Shown: in pieces, positions 3,268-48,924 of the stretch
Numbering within the stretch: the first letter of the stretch is position 1
Layout: every line of letters starts with the position of its first letter
DNA from: Propionibacteriaceae bacterium
GTDB taxonomy: Bacteria > Actinomycetota > Actinomycetes > Propionibacteriales > Propionibacteriaceae
Direction of reading: 5' to 3'
DNA: 64,000 bases
Assembly (NCBI GenBank): GCA_009780915.1
Contig: WQZD01000001.1
Coordinates: 1 to 64,000, forward strand
Made by a program: the position numbers and the translations under genes
Notes under the pieces: model-generated
The model's database searches: none
What the model was told of the DNA's origin: nothing
The model's input: only the letters and a program-made list of their open reading frames with translations

Positions 3268-3958
3268 ACCCATACCCGATGAGGGGGATCACGGCTGACA
3301 GTAAGCAGCTTCGTATCAGGAACTCAACGGCCGAGTTTCTGATCTTTACCGCCCAGGCTGGCGAGGAGTCGATCGAGGTGCGGTACCAGGGCGAGACGAT
3401 TTGGCTGAAACAGCCGCTGATGGCGGAACTCTTCGCCGTCACGCGCGAAAACATCACGATGCACCTGAGGAACATCTACGAGTCAGACGAACTACGTGAA
3501 GAGGCAACCCGTAAGGATTTCTTACAGGTTCTATCAGAAGGTTCGTGACCTGTTTGTCCACACCACCTCTGACTACGACAAAGCGTCCCAGACCGCTAGG
3601 GATTTCTTCACCACGATCCAGAACAAGCTGCTGTTCGCTGTCACCGGCCACACCGCCGCTGAGCTGGTACGGATGCGCATCGACCCACGATCGTCGACGT
3701 TCGGCCTCACGGCCTGGCAGGGTGATCGTCCCGTCAAAGCCGATGCGACTATCGCTAAGAACTATCTCAATGAGGACGAGATCATCGACCTAGACCTGCT
3801 GGTGTCGCAGTTCTTGGACTTCGCTGAAAGCCAAGCACGCTGCCGCTGACCTCACAGAGTTACTCGAGTTGGGCGCGAACAGACCAGTTGCAAAGAATCC
3901 CTTGATGGCTGACGCAGACGATAGGGAAAACGGGAGCGCCGATGGCGATTCAACATGA
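3264..3958 (+). pseudogene. Broken second RhuM gene (chimeric, frameshifted, internal deletion)
   Basis: The 5' part (to about 3530) encodes a RhuM N-terminus different from the first copy (ETIWLKQPLMAELFAVTRENITMHL). It runs out of frame into a 3' part almost identical to the first copy from its RFYQKVRDLF block (frame open 3496-3849). That frame stops at 3847-3849 because about 191 bases present in the first copy (between short CGCCGCCGC repeats at 1584 and 1775) are missing here. After the gap the sequence again matches the first copy to the former stop at 3956-3958. There are thus at least two disabling events: a junction frameshift near 3525 and the deletion. Confidence 0.8.
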
Positions 3959-4197: not shown

Positions 4198-4342
4198 CCC
4201 GGGGGCACGAACCGTACACATCCATCCACGGGGGCACGAATCGTGCTTTTCGGACCGAAAACGGACGGTTCGCGCCCCCACGAAAACTGCGGGGGCACGA
4301 ACTGTTCATTTCGGACCGAAAAATCACGGTTCGCGCCCCCGC
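4198..4342. repeat. Hairpin-forming GGGGGC[A/G]CGAAC repeats (locus A)
   Basis: Two hairpins stand in a row, each with arms of the type GGGGGCACGAA(C/T)(C/T)GT and ACGGTTCGCGCCCCC (4230-4278 and 4291-4340), preceded by a half unit at 4200. The loops contain the palindrome TTTCGGACCGAAA. The same family occurs at 45355-45616 and 48526-48672. All three loci are intergenic. An open frame across this region on the plus strand (4061-4378) looks like chance coding of the repeats. Confidence 0.75.
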
Positions 4343-44954: not shown

Positions 44955-45120
44955 CCTGACGCCCTTCCTGATCGGCAATAGGTGATGTGCATGGCGGTTC
45001 GCTGAGTCCATGATAGCCGTCCTGGGTGCCCTCGGGGTCCCACGCACGGCGGGTCGTCGGCCCGAACGATCAGGACATCGGTGACGTTGGGGCGTCGGGT
45101 CGTCGGTGACGGTTGTGGGT

Positions 45121-45383
45121 GTGGTGGGGGTGCCTGTTTCTTCGTGGGGGCGTGAACTGTTGGTGGTGGTGGTGCCTGTTTCTTCGTGGGGGCGTGAACC
45201 GTGGGTCGTGGTGGTGCCTGTTTCTTCGTGGGGGCGTGAACCGTGGGTCGTGGTGGTGCCTGTTCCGTCGCGGGGGCGCGAACCGTGGGTCGTGGTGGTG
45301 CCTGTTCCGTCGCGGGGGCGCGAACCGTGGGTCGTGGTGGTGCCTGTTCCGTCGCGGGGGCGCGAACCGTGCGTTTTAGTCTG
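45121..45383. repeat. Tandem array, 42-base unit, six copies
   Basis: TGCCTGTT recurs at 45131, 45173, 45215, 45257, 45299 and 45341: an exact 42-base period. Each unit contains GGGGGCGTGAACCGTGG or GGGGGCGCGAACCGTGG, i.e. one arm of the hairpin-repeat family. The first three units read TTTCTTCGTG and the last three TTCCGTCGCG at the same place, so the array grew in two steps. Because 42 is a multiple of three, all frames stay open across it. Confidence 0.85.
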
Positions 45384-45616
45384 AAAAAGCACGGTTGGTG
45401 CCCCCGCAGATTTCCAGGGGGCGCGAACCGTGCGTTTGTGCATGGATGTGCACGGTTCGTGCCCCCGCGGTTAGTGGTGGGGGTGCCTGTTTCGTCGTGG
45501 GGGCGTGAACTGTTGGTTTTGCCCCGGGAAATCGCAGTTCGTGCCCCCATAGTTTTTCGGGGGGCGCGAACTGTCGGTTTGGTGCATGATTATTCGCAGT
45601 TCGTGCCCCCGCGAAT
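45355..45616. repeat. Four hairpin repeats with covarying stems (locus B)
   Basis: The hairpins start at about 45356, 45416, 45499 and 45559, each with a GGGGGCG(C/T)GAAC arm and a GTTCGTGCCCCC-type return arm. Two have arms GAACCGTGC / GCACGGTT and two have GAACTG / CAGTTC: the stem bases change on both sides together, so pairing is kept. Loops differ, which argues against simple copying. Confidence 0.75.
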
Positions 45617-45670
45617 GGGTGAACTCCCGGGGTGGGTGGGTCCCCGCGGTAGGCGGTACCCCGGGGTCAG

Positions 45671-45845
45671 GTGGCGCCCGGGTGAGGTGGTGTCCCCGGG
45701 TCGGGTGGCGCCCGGGTGAGGTGGCGCCCGGGTGAGGTGGCGCCCAGGTCGGGTGGCGCCCAGGTCGGGTGGCGCCCAGGTCGGGTGGCGCCCGGCTCAG
45801 GTGGCGCCCGGGTCGGGTGGCGCCCCGGGCAAGGTGGTACCCCCA
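45671..45845. repeat. Minisatellite, 16-base unit GTGGCGCCCAGGTCGG
   Basis: Units start at 45671, then (after one 18-base variant unit at 45687) at 45705, 45721, 45737, 45753, 45769, 45785, 45801 and 45817, with variants GGGTGAG and GGCTCAG at the end of the unit. Each holds the palindrome GGCGCC. Degenerate relatives extend to about 45620 and 45880. It abuts the C-terminus of the YcaQ-like gene. Confidence 0.85.
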
Positions 45846-45881
45846 GGTCAGATGGCCCCCTTCAGTGGTACGTGGTGCGCC

Positions 45882-47117
45882 TCAACCGAGCGCATCGCGT
45901 AGGTCGGACGCCACATCTCCGTTGGCGTCCACGTGGATATCGTCCATCCCCAACCACTCGGCCAGGCGGCGGAGTTCGTCGCCGAAGCGAGAGGCGATCC
46001 GCTGGCGCTGGGGGTCCAGCCCGGGTTCGAGCCACGCGGACCTCACCATCAAGGTCGACGCGGCCCGGTCGGCTTTGAGGTCGGCACGGGCGACGAACCG
46101 GTCGTCGAGCAGGAACAAGTACACATAATATCCGTGAATGCGCTTGTGGGCGGGGGTGTAGAGCCCCAGGGAGTAGTCAGTGTCGAAGAATGCGGCCAGA
46201 CGTTTGCGCTCGAACACCAAGGAGTCGAAGGGGCTGACGAGGGCGCATCCGGCGACCTGGCGCGGCCGGGCGGCGTCGTGCCAGACCCACGCCGGTTCGC
46301 GGACCCCGTCGACTTCGGCGGGGATCAGTTCTCCCGACGCCACGAGGTCGGCGATGGCGGCCCGGGTGGGGGCCGGCGCTGTACGGAAGTAGTCGCCCAG
46401 GCACCGGGCTGTGCCAACGCCCAATGCTCGTGCTGCACGGCGCGCCAGCGCCACGTGGCTACCATGCGTCATCTCCGCACGTTCGGTGGCGGTGGCGTGA
46501 GCCCACGGCTCGCATACGGCGATCTGATCGGCGGGGATCACCCGCTCGGGGATGTCGTACACCCTCTCGAACGAGGAGTTCCGCCCCGCGACGGCGACCC
46601 GCCCGCACCAGAACAGCCACTCCAACGCGGTCTTCGCCAGCGACCAGTTCCACCCCCATTGATCGCGGCTGCGGCTCTCCCGATAGTCGAGGTCGCGGGC
46701 CGTGACGGGCCCCGACGCCGCGACCGCGTCGGCGACCTCCTCGATGATCCGCGGATGGGCGTCCACCACATCCCGGATCCCGCTCCAGGTCTGGGCGTAC
46801 GCGGCGTCCCGGCGGAACTGGAAAGCAGGGTAGGCACGAATGTCGATCAGGCTGGCCGCGTGTCCCCAGTACTCGAACAGGCGGCGTGGCGCGGTGGAGG
46901 CGGCGCGGGTCAGCAGGGCGGGGTCGTACGCTCCCACGCGCGTGTACAGGGGCATCAGATGCGCCCTGGCAAGCACATTCACCGAATCGATCTGGAACTG
47001 TCCGAGACGGGTGATCGTGGACTGAACCTGGCGCATCCCCACGGGTCTGTCCCGATCTGCGCCGATCCCCTGTGCGGCCAGCGCGATCCGGCGGGCCTGG
47101 GGTTTCGTGAGACGCAT
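45882..47117 (-). CDS. YcaQ/AlkX-type DNA glycosylase (winged-helix HTH_42)
   Basis: The 411-residue product of the HTH_42 family (COG3214) has E. coli YcaQ/AlkX as a member that unhooks interstrand DNA crosslinks. The catalytic Q-x-D triplet of that branch is visible as Q42-I-D44 in LGQFQIDSVNV. Other family landmarks are RRLFEYWGHAASLIDIRAYP, ALEWLFWCGRVAV and LVSPFDSLVFERKRL followed by HKRIHGYYVYLFLLDDRFVAR. The ATG at 47117 (MRLTKPQARRIAL) gives the usual length; the frame is open far upstream only because of repeats and the complementary strand of meaB. Confidence 0.88.
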   Translation of the reverse strand: MRLTKPQARRIALAAQGIGADRDRPVGMRQVQSTITRLGQFQIDSVNVLARAHLMPLYTRVGAYDPALLTRAASTAPRRLFEYWGHAASLIDIRAYPAFQFRRDAAYAQTWSGIRDVVDAHPRIIEEVADAVAASGPVTARDLDYRESRSRDQWGWNWSLAKTALEWLFWCGRVAVAGRNSSFERVYDIPERVIPADQIAVCEPWAHATATERAEMTHGSHVALARRAARALGVGTARCLGDYFRTAPAPTRAAIADLVASGELIPAEVDGVREPAWVWHDAARPRQVAGCALVSPFDSLVFERKRLAAFFDTDYSLGLYTPAHKRIHGYYVYLFLLDDRFVARADLKADRAASTLMVRSAWLEPGLDPQRQRIASRFGDELRRLAEWLGMDDIHVDANGDVASDLRDALG

Positions 47118-47164
47118 GGGCTCATTCTTCCACCAGCGGCGCCTCGGCCGGATCCTTCCCATGC

Positions 47165-47320
47165 CGGGGCCCCGCGTCGGCTGGGAACGCCCTCGGGTGG
47201 TACGCCCAGTATCGTTCGGGCGGCGGGGCTCCGCGTCGGCTGGGGACGCCCTCGGGTGGAGTACGCCCAGTACTGTTCGAACGGCGTGGCTCCGCGTCGG
47301 CTGGGGATGCCCGGTGTGCC
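47165..47320. repeat. Tandem repeat, ~60-base unit, 2.5 copies, upstream of meaB
   Basis: CGCGTCGGCTGGG recurs at 47173, 47232 and 47293 (59 and 61 bases apart), each followed by (A/G)CGCCCTCGGGTGG and GTACGCCCAGTA in the first two units. It fills the space between the glycosylase start (minus) and meaB (plus). Confidence 0.75.
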
Positions 47321-47415
47321 CAAGAGGAGGGCGGTTTTCGGTAGGGTACTGAATGTCAGGTTTTTCATCGGGGGACGCGCCCACCTCTCGCCCGGTGGGT
47401 CCCAAGGAGGTTGCG

Positions 47416-48414
47416 ATGAGCCAAGTCCAGGATCTCGCAGACGGCGTCTTCGCGGGCAACCGCCGCCAGGTCGCCCGCGCCATCACGCTGGTCGAGTCCA
47501 TGCGCATGCAGGACCGCGCCCAGGCGCGCGAGTTGTTGGGGATTCTGCGCGAGCACCCGACCCAGGCGGTACGAGTGGGGGTGACGGGCGTCCCCGGCGC
47601 GGGGAAATCGACCTTCATCGACGCCCTGGGCGTACGCCTCGTCGACCAGGGCCACAAGGTCGCCGTGTTGGCGGTGGACCCCTCGTCCTCCAAGACCGGC
47701 GGGTCCATCCTGGGGGACCGTACGCGCATGTCCGCCCTGGCCATGTCCGAGCAGGCGTTCATCCGTCCGTCCCCCTCGGGCAACCACTTGGGCGGTGTGG
47801 CGCGGGCCACGCGCGAGTCGATGCTCGTCGTCGAGGCGGCGGGGTACGACGTGGTCCTGGTCGAGACCGTCGGGGTCGGCCAGTCGGAGGTCGCGGTGGC
47901 CGGGATGGTCGACACCTTCCTGCTGGTGACGCTGGCGCGCGCCGGGGACCAACTCCAGGGGATCAAGAAGGGGATCTTGGAGATGGCCGACCTGATCACC
48001 GTCAACAAGGCCGACGGTGACAACGAGGCCGCTTCGCGAGTCGCCGCGCGGGAGCTGACGACCGCGATGAAGCTCATCACCTCCGACTCGAAAGCGCGGC
48101 GTCCACCTGTGTTGACCTCGTCCTCGTACACCGGCGCCGGCCTGATGGAGATCTGGGAGGCCATCCTCACCCACCGGGCCTACCTGGAGACGTCCGGCGG
48201 CCTGGCCGCCCGTCGCGCCCGCCAGCAACGGGACTGGATGTGGTCCCTCATCGACGACGAGTTGCTGGAGTCCGTACGCCAAACCCCGTCCGTCAAGGCG
48301 ATACGTTCCCAGCTAGAGGCCGATGTCATGGCCGGAGGCGCCTCCGCCATGGAAGCCGCCCAGGAGATCCTCTCCTCCTTCGCCCGGAATCTGCCCTCCA
48401 CGTGGATGGAATGA
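47416..48414 (+). CDS. meaB: MeaB-type GTPase, methylmalonyl-CoA mutase chaperone
   Basis: The 332-residue G3E-family GTPase has Walker A GVPGAGKS (58-65), the ETVGVGQSE switch (about 156-164) and NKADG for guanine. It protects methylmalonyl-CoA mutase, gating adenosylcobalamin loading and release. The start MSQVQDLADG at 47416 follows AAGGAGG; the frame is open 21 codons upstream without a ribosome site. Its client genes mutAB lie 4.8 kb upstream, separated by accessory genes and repeats. Confidence 0.95.
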   Translation: MSQVQDLADGVFAGNRRQVARAITLVESMRMQDRAQARELLGILREHPTQAVRVGVTGVPGAGKSTFIDALGVRLVDQGHKVAVLAVDPSSSKTGGSILGDRTRMSALAMSEQAFIRPSPSGNHLGGVARATRESMLVVEAAGYDVVLVETVGVGQSEVAVAGMVDTFLLVTLARAGDQLQGIKKGILEMADLITVNKADGDNEAASRVAARELTTAMKLITSDSKARRPPVLTSSSYTGAGLMEIWEAILTHRAYLETSGGLAARRARQQRDWMWSLIDDELLESVRQTPSVKAIRSQLEADVMAGGASAMEAAQEILSSFARNLPSTWME

Positions 48415-48446
48415 CTCGTCACTGACGATCTGATGGATCGCGATGA

Positions 48447-48492
48447 TGTACTCGTGGTCTCGAGTACATGTCTACTCGACATCACGAGTACA
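48447..48492. other. Nested inverted repeat after meaB
   Basis: The outer arms TGTACTCGTG (48447-48456) and CACGAGTACA (48483-48492) pair perfectly over ten bases. Inside, CGAGTA (48461-48466) pairs with TACTCG (48473-48478). It is located about 30 bases after the meaB stop, so it could terminate transcription although no T-run follows; a protein-binding site is the alternative. Confidence 0.5.
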
Positions 48493-48525
48493 AATGTGGG
48501 ACCGCCTCATGGAAGCGGTGGCCCC

Positions 48526-48672
48526 GGGGGGCGCGAACCGTGCGCCACGATCTCCGGGGGGCGCGAACTGTGCTTGACAGACTGAAAAACCACGGTTCGC
48601 GCCCCCGCCATCATCACGGGGGCATGAACCGTGCTTTTCGGCTCGAAAAAGCACGGTTCGCGCCCCCGCGGC
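48526..48672. repeat. Hairpin repeats (locus C)
   Basis: A half unit (GGGGGGCGCGAACCGTGCG) is followed by a hairpin GGCGCGAACTGTGC / ACGGTTCGCGCC (48556-48607). A near-perfect one follows, GGGGGCATGAACCGTGC / GCACGGTTCGCGCCCCC (48619-48667), with the loop TTTTCGGCTCGAAAAA, close to the TTTTCGGACCGAAAA loop of locus A. Short GCCGCGACTCACCCC tandem units follow (48697-48745). Confidence 0.75.
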
Positions 48673-48752
48673 CACATCAAGGATCCACACGGCCCCGCCG
48701 CGACTCACCCCCGCCGCGACTCACCCCAGCCACGACTCACCCCAGGTTGCGC

Positions 48753-48794
48753 GAGCACCCCCATGCTCGACTCACATGAGAACACCCCCCCACC
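48753..48794. repeat. Element upstream of clpB shared with the nuoA upstream region
   Basis: GAGCACCCCCATGCTCGACT followed by CACATGAGAACACCC is the partner of 4448-4489. Each copy lies between a hairpin cluster and a promoter. Confidence 0.55.
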
Positions 48795-48830
48795 CGTCGC
48801 AAGTAGACAGATACCACCCCTCGTACTAAA

Positions 48831-48851
48831 CTTGAGTCTAGTACGCTCAAC
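48831..48851 (+). promoter_or_regulatory. HAIR-like HspR site upstream of clpB
   Basis: CTTGAGT, seven bases, GCTCAAC: the consensus HAIR element is CTTGAGT-N7-ACTCAAG, so the left arm is exact and the right arm has five of seven bases. HspR represses dnaK and clpB in actinobacteria through this element. It lies 74 bases before the clpB start. Confidence 0.65.
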
Positions 48852-48924
48852 TTTGATGGAGCATGAGAATCCTCCACGGAGATGAGCCCATGAATCACCA
48901 CCTCACAAGGAGAAACTCCACACG

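Follow-up and report, generated by a model that had tools for sequence, protein, structure and literature searches.

A dispersed family of hairpin repeats with a REP-like layout in a Propionibacteriaceae genome

The 2.78-Mb genome of a Propionibacteriaceae bacterium (2,783,130 bp in 45 contigs, rated 99.37% complete) carries a family of at least 103 short hairpins, 99 of them distinct, which lie in at least 44 clusters, or 47 when single arms are also counted. We consider it probable, at about 0.7, that the family is a lineage-specific, non-autonomous, REP-like palindromic mobile element that expands locally by tandem duplication, and whose mobiliser is another enzyme than the REP-associated tyrosine transposase (RAYT), has been lost or lies in unassembled DNA. 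The family came to light in the window, the whole 64,000-nucleotide stretch analysed here (assembly GCA_009780915.1, contig WQZD01000001.1, positions 1 to 64,000). There, a first-pass annotation had described about eight hairpins at three distant intergenic places and listed a REP/BIME-like element or a miniature mobile element among the possible explanations, a suggestion that is supported. The window has no Rfam hit at gathering score, in line with the annotation, which knew of no named family with this consensus, and the sole weak hit in 45000-48900 reaches 21.9 bits against a gathering threshold of 50 (E 0.92).

All eight hairpins are present at the annotated places with the proposed consensus, and a covariance model of the family, run on the window, returns these eight and no others (16 hits over both strands, up to E 10). 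At 4.2 kb, upstream of nuoA, a plus-strand single arm or half-unit (4201..4216), with the next arm 29 bp on, precedes doublet A, which has model polarity + and consists of two 50-bp hairpins (4230..4279 and 4291..4340) separated by an A-rich 11-bp spacer (4280..4290). Both hairpins have TTTCGGACCGAAA centres, in agreement with the palindromic loops reported earlier. Two RhuM-family matches, of which one is nearly full-length and the other partial, lie upstream of this cluster (813-1895 and 3496-3849).

The second cluster, at 45 kb, sits between two minus-strand genes, an AlkZ-like gene and a phosphorylase-family gene. It includes a 42-bp tandem array of 5.9 copies (45124..45371), with one arm per copy, which reaches into doublet B at its first hairpin, and five unpaired arms are found at 45146-45327, 42 bp apart. 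Doublet B is composed of two 50-bp hairpins (45356..45405 and 45417..45466) and an 11-bp spacer (45406..45416), while doublet C combines a 50-bp hairpin (45499..45548), an 11-bp spacer (45549..45559) and a 51-bp hairpin (45560..45610). The polarity of this cluster is undecided, as the orientation model alternates, and the arms are seven of the GT type and none of the AC type. Directly after the hairpins there is a separate tandem array at 45664-45860 (10.7 copies of a 16-bp unit, GGGTCAGGTGGCGCCC), and the gap between the AlkZ-like gene and meaB contains a 61-bp tandem repeat of 2.5 copies (47165-47312) that has the period of the hairpin units and a different sequence. The third cluster, between meaB and the gene of a Clp-type ATPase, comprises a plus-strand single arm (48527..48542; next arm 30 bp on) and doublet D, again of model polarity +, with two 50-bp hairpins (48557..48606 and 48618..48667) around an 11-bp spacer (48607..48617).

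Across the source genome the family exceeds chance by a wide margin. The 16-base arm pattern, with at most one mismatch, has 196 matches compared to 2 for its reversed control, and the pattern of the whole hairpin has 89 matches per strand compared to none. Hairpin length is tightly constrained: 63 members are 50 bp long, 38 are 51 bp and two are 60 bp, and thus all 103 display two conserved inverted arms around a length-constrained centre, which takes up 22-23 bases in the 50/51-bp forms. In an alignment of 58 of the 50-mers, made without two rows that had a damaged end, 18 of 50 columns are invariant, and conservation extends about 3-4 bp past the arms. Neighbouring hairpins are separated by exactly 11 bp in 41 pairs, and the usual form of the element is two units head to tail, spanning 111-113 bp. 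Unpaired arms account for 43 of the 236 arms found with at most one mismatch, and 28 of these lie 28-31 bp and six lie 42 bp from the next arm in the same direction.

The family has a polar, direct-copy structure. According to the orientation model, the consensus arms are GGGGGCRCGAACYGT and ACRGTTCGCGCCCCC, the variable centre is rich in T toward its left side and in A toward its right, and the spacer tends to ACGAAAATCCG in the model direction; the two units share the same polarity in 35 of 40 doublets (binomial p 1.4e-6). Moreover, among 40 distinct doublets the loops of neighbouring hairpins are directly alike (identity 0.639 and 0.620, compared to 0.511 and 0.505 in shuffles; z 6.1 and 5.6), whereas their complementarity is below chance both within a hairpin (0.459 and 0.420 versus 0.499 and 0.508) and across the doublet (0.450 and 0.439 versus 0.501 and 0.502), which gives the copies the appearance of polar direct repeats. 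Between clusters polarity is mixed, with 22 in the plus and 19 in the minus orientation and six undecided.

Among the genomes searched, the family is restricted to its source. The whole hairpin pattern occurs in one of 198 genomes of the bacterial family (141 of them with completeness of 90% or more and contamination of 5% or less), namely the source genome, and its reversed control occurs in none. Similarly, a covariance model (R2), with up to 150 candidates scored per genome, has at least 150 matches in the source genome and none in its 18 congeners, hence in one of 19 genomes of the genus, 12 of which reach the same limits of completeness and contamination. The only exact arm match among the congeners, in G006, was set aside as isolated and unrelated, since by eye it falls in an apparently coding, proline-rich stretch. 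A stricter pattern had no match in the genome_contigs collection, from which the source genome itself may be absent, and one query each of viral_contigs, plasmids and phages returned no match, on which ground a phage, plasmid or viral origin was rejected. No description of such hairpins appears in the titles and abstract beginnings of the literature matches listed.

With regard to gene context, the 47 clusters divide into 14 between convergent genes, 20 between genes of the same direction, six between divergent genes, five with one called neighbour and two inside genes, and these classes rest on a home-made gene caller, which missed the AlkZ-like gene, so that the 45-kb cluster was reclassed from divergent. 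On this basis, among the intergenic clusters for which both neighbours were called, 14 of 40 fall in convergent gaps, compared to 16 of the 103 other spans (p 0.011). Polarity as a signal of gene direction was rejected, because in clusters between same-direction genes it agrees with the genes in eight, opposes them in ten and is undecided in two. A replication-strand signal, judged from the alternation of polarity within contigs, was set aside as well.

The two intragenic clusters (L051 and L074) leave the frames of an ABC transporter and a GcvT-like protein open, and the copy in the transporter is placed between the membrane and ATPase domains. In alignments, the peptide encoded by the element is absent from the congeneric proteins that cover the sites, that is, 16 GcvT-like proteins (one from each of 16 congeners, as the remaining two of the 18 yielded only fragments) and 17 of 18 aligned ABC proteins. 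The element is thus present in frame in coding genes in two of 47 clusters, with its peptide missing from the alignable congeneric proteins. Both sites are linkers of variable length among congeners: the GcvT-like site carries a long unrelated segment in one congener (L175), and several have long unrelated sequence in the ABC linker, one of which (L195) is longer than that of the source genome, and consequently the proteins alone give no exact empty site.

Taken together, these features suggest the following course. The unit would be two facing conserved arms held at a fixed distance by a centre of free sequence (50/51 bp in all), plus the 11-bp spacer. A mobilising protein probably recognises the arms, and this would account for their conservation and for a centre that keeps a fixed length and is poorly conserved in sequence. 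Copies would have settled at no fewer than 44 places, mainly intergenic and twice within open reading frames at protein linkers, where we infer arrival by insertion and where the absence from congeneric proteins is directly seen. After placement, units and single arms may have multiplied locally by tandem duplication or slippage, as suggested by the resemblance of adjacent copies and by local periods of 29-31, 42 and 61 bp among arms and units, and any effects on the host, such as protection of mRNA 3' ends or termination, would be secondary. Mobility is inferred here from one genome of the species. Counting against it, this genome showed neither an excision product nor an exact empty site at the DNA level, nor a target duplication, the last being readable only with near-identical empty sites.

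The main alternative is that the hairpins are a true REP/REPIN family whose RAYT gene has been lost or lies in unassembled DNA, which we regard as possible although clearly less likely. The architecture is close to that of REPINs, which in the available excerpt of PMC3116915 consist of two invariant 16-mers with a spacer constrained by length and are linked to RAYTs. Furthermore, five clusters lie no more than about 450 bp from the end of a contig, at points where the assembly breaks, and the Y1 transposase profile PF01797 has matches in two of 18 congeners (G007 and G015). The match in G015 is flanked by GGGGACWGTCCCC palindromes (L212:1112-1269 and 2002-2096), the arrangement to be expected if a RAYT were accompanied by REPs of its own. 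However, the RAYT proposed in the annotation did not turn up in the source genome, which at 99.37% completeness has no match to PF01797 or NF047646 at E 0.001, while an Escherichia coli control was positive for both. Terminal tags point in the same direction: GTAG is found within 6 nt of an end in none of the 103 hairpins, and CGTC is found in nine, compared to four at a control distance. As no RAYT is detectable, the mobiliser of a REP-like element here would be another enzyme, lost, or encoded in unassembled DNA. Among the examined proteins that neighbour clusters, no transposase bounded by the arms was seen.

A second alternative, which we find improbable, is that the hairpins are a structured RNA element (an mRNA 3'-end hairpin, attenuator or bidirectional terminator) under selection on base pairing. 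It draws on the mostly intergenic position of the family, its enrichment between convergent genes and its stable folds, as seven sequences folded with single-stranded DNA parameters gave z from -4.1 to -9.6 relative to shuffles. It also matches the proposal of a dispersed non-coding RNA in the first-pass annotation, which had reported compensatory stem changes and concluded that pairing rather than sequence is kept. This conclusion does not hold genome-wide. The arms are conserved as sequence, as their invariant columns show, and in the 58 aligned 50-mers 83.0% of cells are paired compared to 82.7% after shuffling, double-sided pair changes number six compared to 7.1, and the covariation score is equalled by 83 of 500 shuffles; the covariation test that the annotation had proposed hence reveals no excess, and the RNA reading loses this support. 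Within the window, the change from GAACCG to GAACTG is answered by CAGTTC only in the neighbours at 45499 and 45560, while the other two of the four GAACTG hairpins, at 4291 and 48557, keep CGGTTC.

Single stem positions give a mixed picture. At position 7 the two arms agree less often than in shuffles (0.30 versus 0.52; 83 distinct hairpins, first set). Position 13 leans toward covariation in the same 83 hairpins (0.61 versus 0.48, p 0.004), as it does in the first hairpins of doublets (z +2.7), and in the full set agreement within a hairpin is 0.63 compared to 0.45 at random. However, arms of neighbouring hairpins agree at this position about as often as those of one hairpin (facing arms 0.62, same-side arms 0.60 and 0.62), the outer arms less so (0.52). 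Position 16 exceeds shuffles in 50-mers (0.53 versus 0.41, p 0.03) but falls below them in 51-mers (0.16 versus 0.34). Compensatory covariation was rejected, as it is not borne out in any of four analyses. More generally, seeming compensatory changes among repeats can reflect the shared descent of neighbouring copies, for which the arms of different hairpins serve as the control. A whole doublet can also fold into one long hairpin (three of four doublet strands folded, from two of three doublets tried), and this was dismissed as a covarying structure because loop complementarity is below that of shuffles. An intrinsic terminator was rejected for want of a T-run, since the share of T stays at or below 17% throughout the 14 positions 3' of the outer ends; likewise, A stays at or below 26% throughout the 14 positions 5' of them, and the mixed polarity relative to genes also argues against an RNA function.

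A protein that organises or partitions the chromosome might bind the hairpins, with the arms as sites and the palindrome reflecting dimer binding, and this would fit the strict 50/51-bp arm-to-arm distance, the conserved arms and the arrays of single arms 28-31 bp apart. Yet we deem it highly improbable, because sister species should share a housekeeping site and it was found in none of the 18 congeners examined, cluster polarity is mixed and copies lie inside genes. The replication or segregation mark suggested at first is likewise not supported, given the negative search of these congeners and the mixed polarity.

Several known repeat systems can be compared with the REP-like mobile element favoured here. 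Like MITEs, it is short, non-autonomous, dispersed and built of inverted repeats; unlike them, it has tandem units and half-units, and no matching-ended parental insertion sequence is seen in its examined neighbourhoods. BIMEs of Escherichia coli are mosaics of palindromic units with short linkers, in which REPs alternate in orientation. The present family has a similar mosaic of palindromic units and short linkers, whereas most of its units repeat in the same direction. REPINs and GTAG-type REPs with a RAYT, such as those of Pseudomonas fluorescens SBW25, share with it inverted arms of about 16 bp, a variable spacer constrained in length, a place in convergent or unidirectional gene gaps, an occurrence as singlets, doublets and tandem clusters, and intragenic copies, as far as the excerpts of PMC3116915 and PMC3733652 describe them. 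It differs from them in having no detected RAYT, no GTAG tag and covariation no better than shuffles, where the same excerpt of PMC3116915 calls compensatory changes common, and in its actinobacterial host (PMC3733652 nowhere uses the word 'Actinobacteria'). Doublets of a RAYT-mobilised family would be expected to be mostly inverted (HH or TT), unlike the head-to-tail doublets here.

Likeness to the CGTC REPs, including Rickettsia RPE-4 and RPE-6 and Neisseria dRS3, lies in the palindromic form, in having no dedicated transposase known and in in-frame insertions into genes, which the consulted portions of PMC3733652 and PMC10969869 report, the latter for RPEs. The present family has no CGTC tag, and two of its 47 clusters are intragenic, whereas nearly half of RPEs were in their first report, according to the excerpt of PMC10969869. 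The hairpin family hence works like a REP/RPE-type element and is not filed as one, because it shares the layout, context and intragenic copies and does not have the tags, the transposase or the usual dimer direction. That it might represent a new class of Actinomycetota REP-like mobile element, with a non-Y1/RAYT enzyme, head-to-tail doublets, tag-less ends and in-frame insertion into linkers, is a doubtful proposition that we put forward tentatively. The parts of the literature consulted link REP-like repeats to a single transposase family and to two end tags. An abundant, apparently recent family with neither of these, in a genome so close to complete, would imply either a further mobiliser or the persistence of copies after the loss of their enzyme.

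Two of the sites occupied in the source genome carry other repeats in relatives. The closest relatives of the MeaB protein come from Propionibacteriaceae metagenome-assembled genomes, several of whose isolate codes we take to denote termite guts. In two related genomes of this kind, the gap between meaB and clp contains unrelated repeats with palindromic parts, TGCGCGAAGTCGCAGAATCC four times in one (L087:7038-7640) and TCATCCTGC four times in the other (L102:3147-3654). In the ABC linker of congener G015 (L206), a different palindrome, TCATCCTGAGCGCAGCGAAGGATC with its return arm, stands at the site of the element and is also in frame. Since these palindromic repeats at two same sites are unrelated to the family, each species may carry a family of its own.
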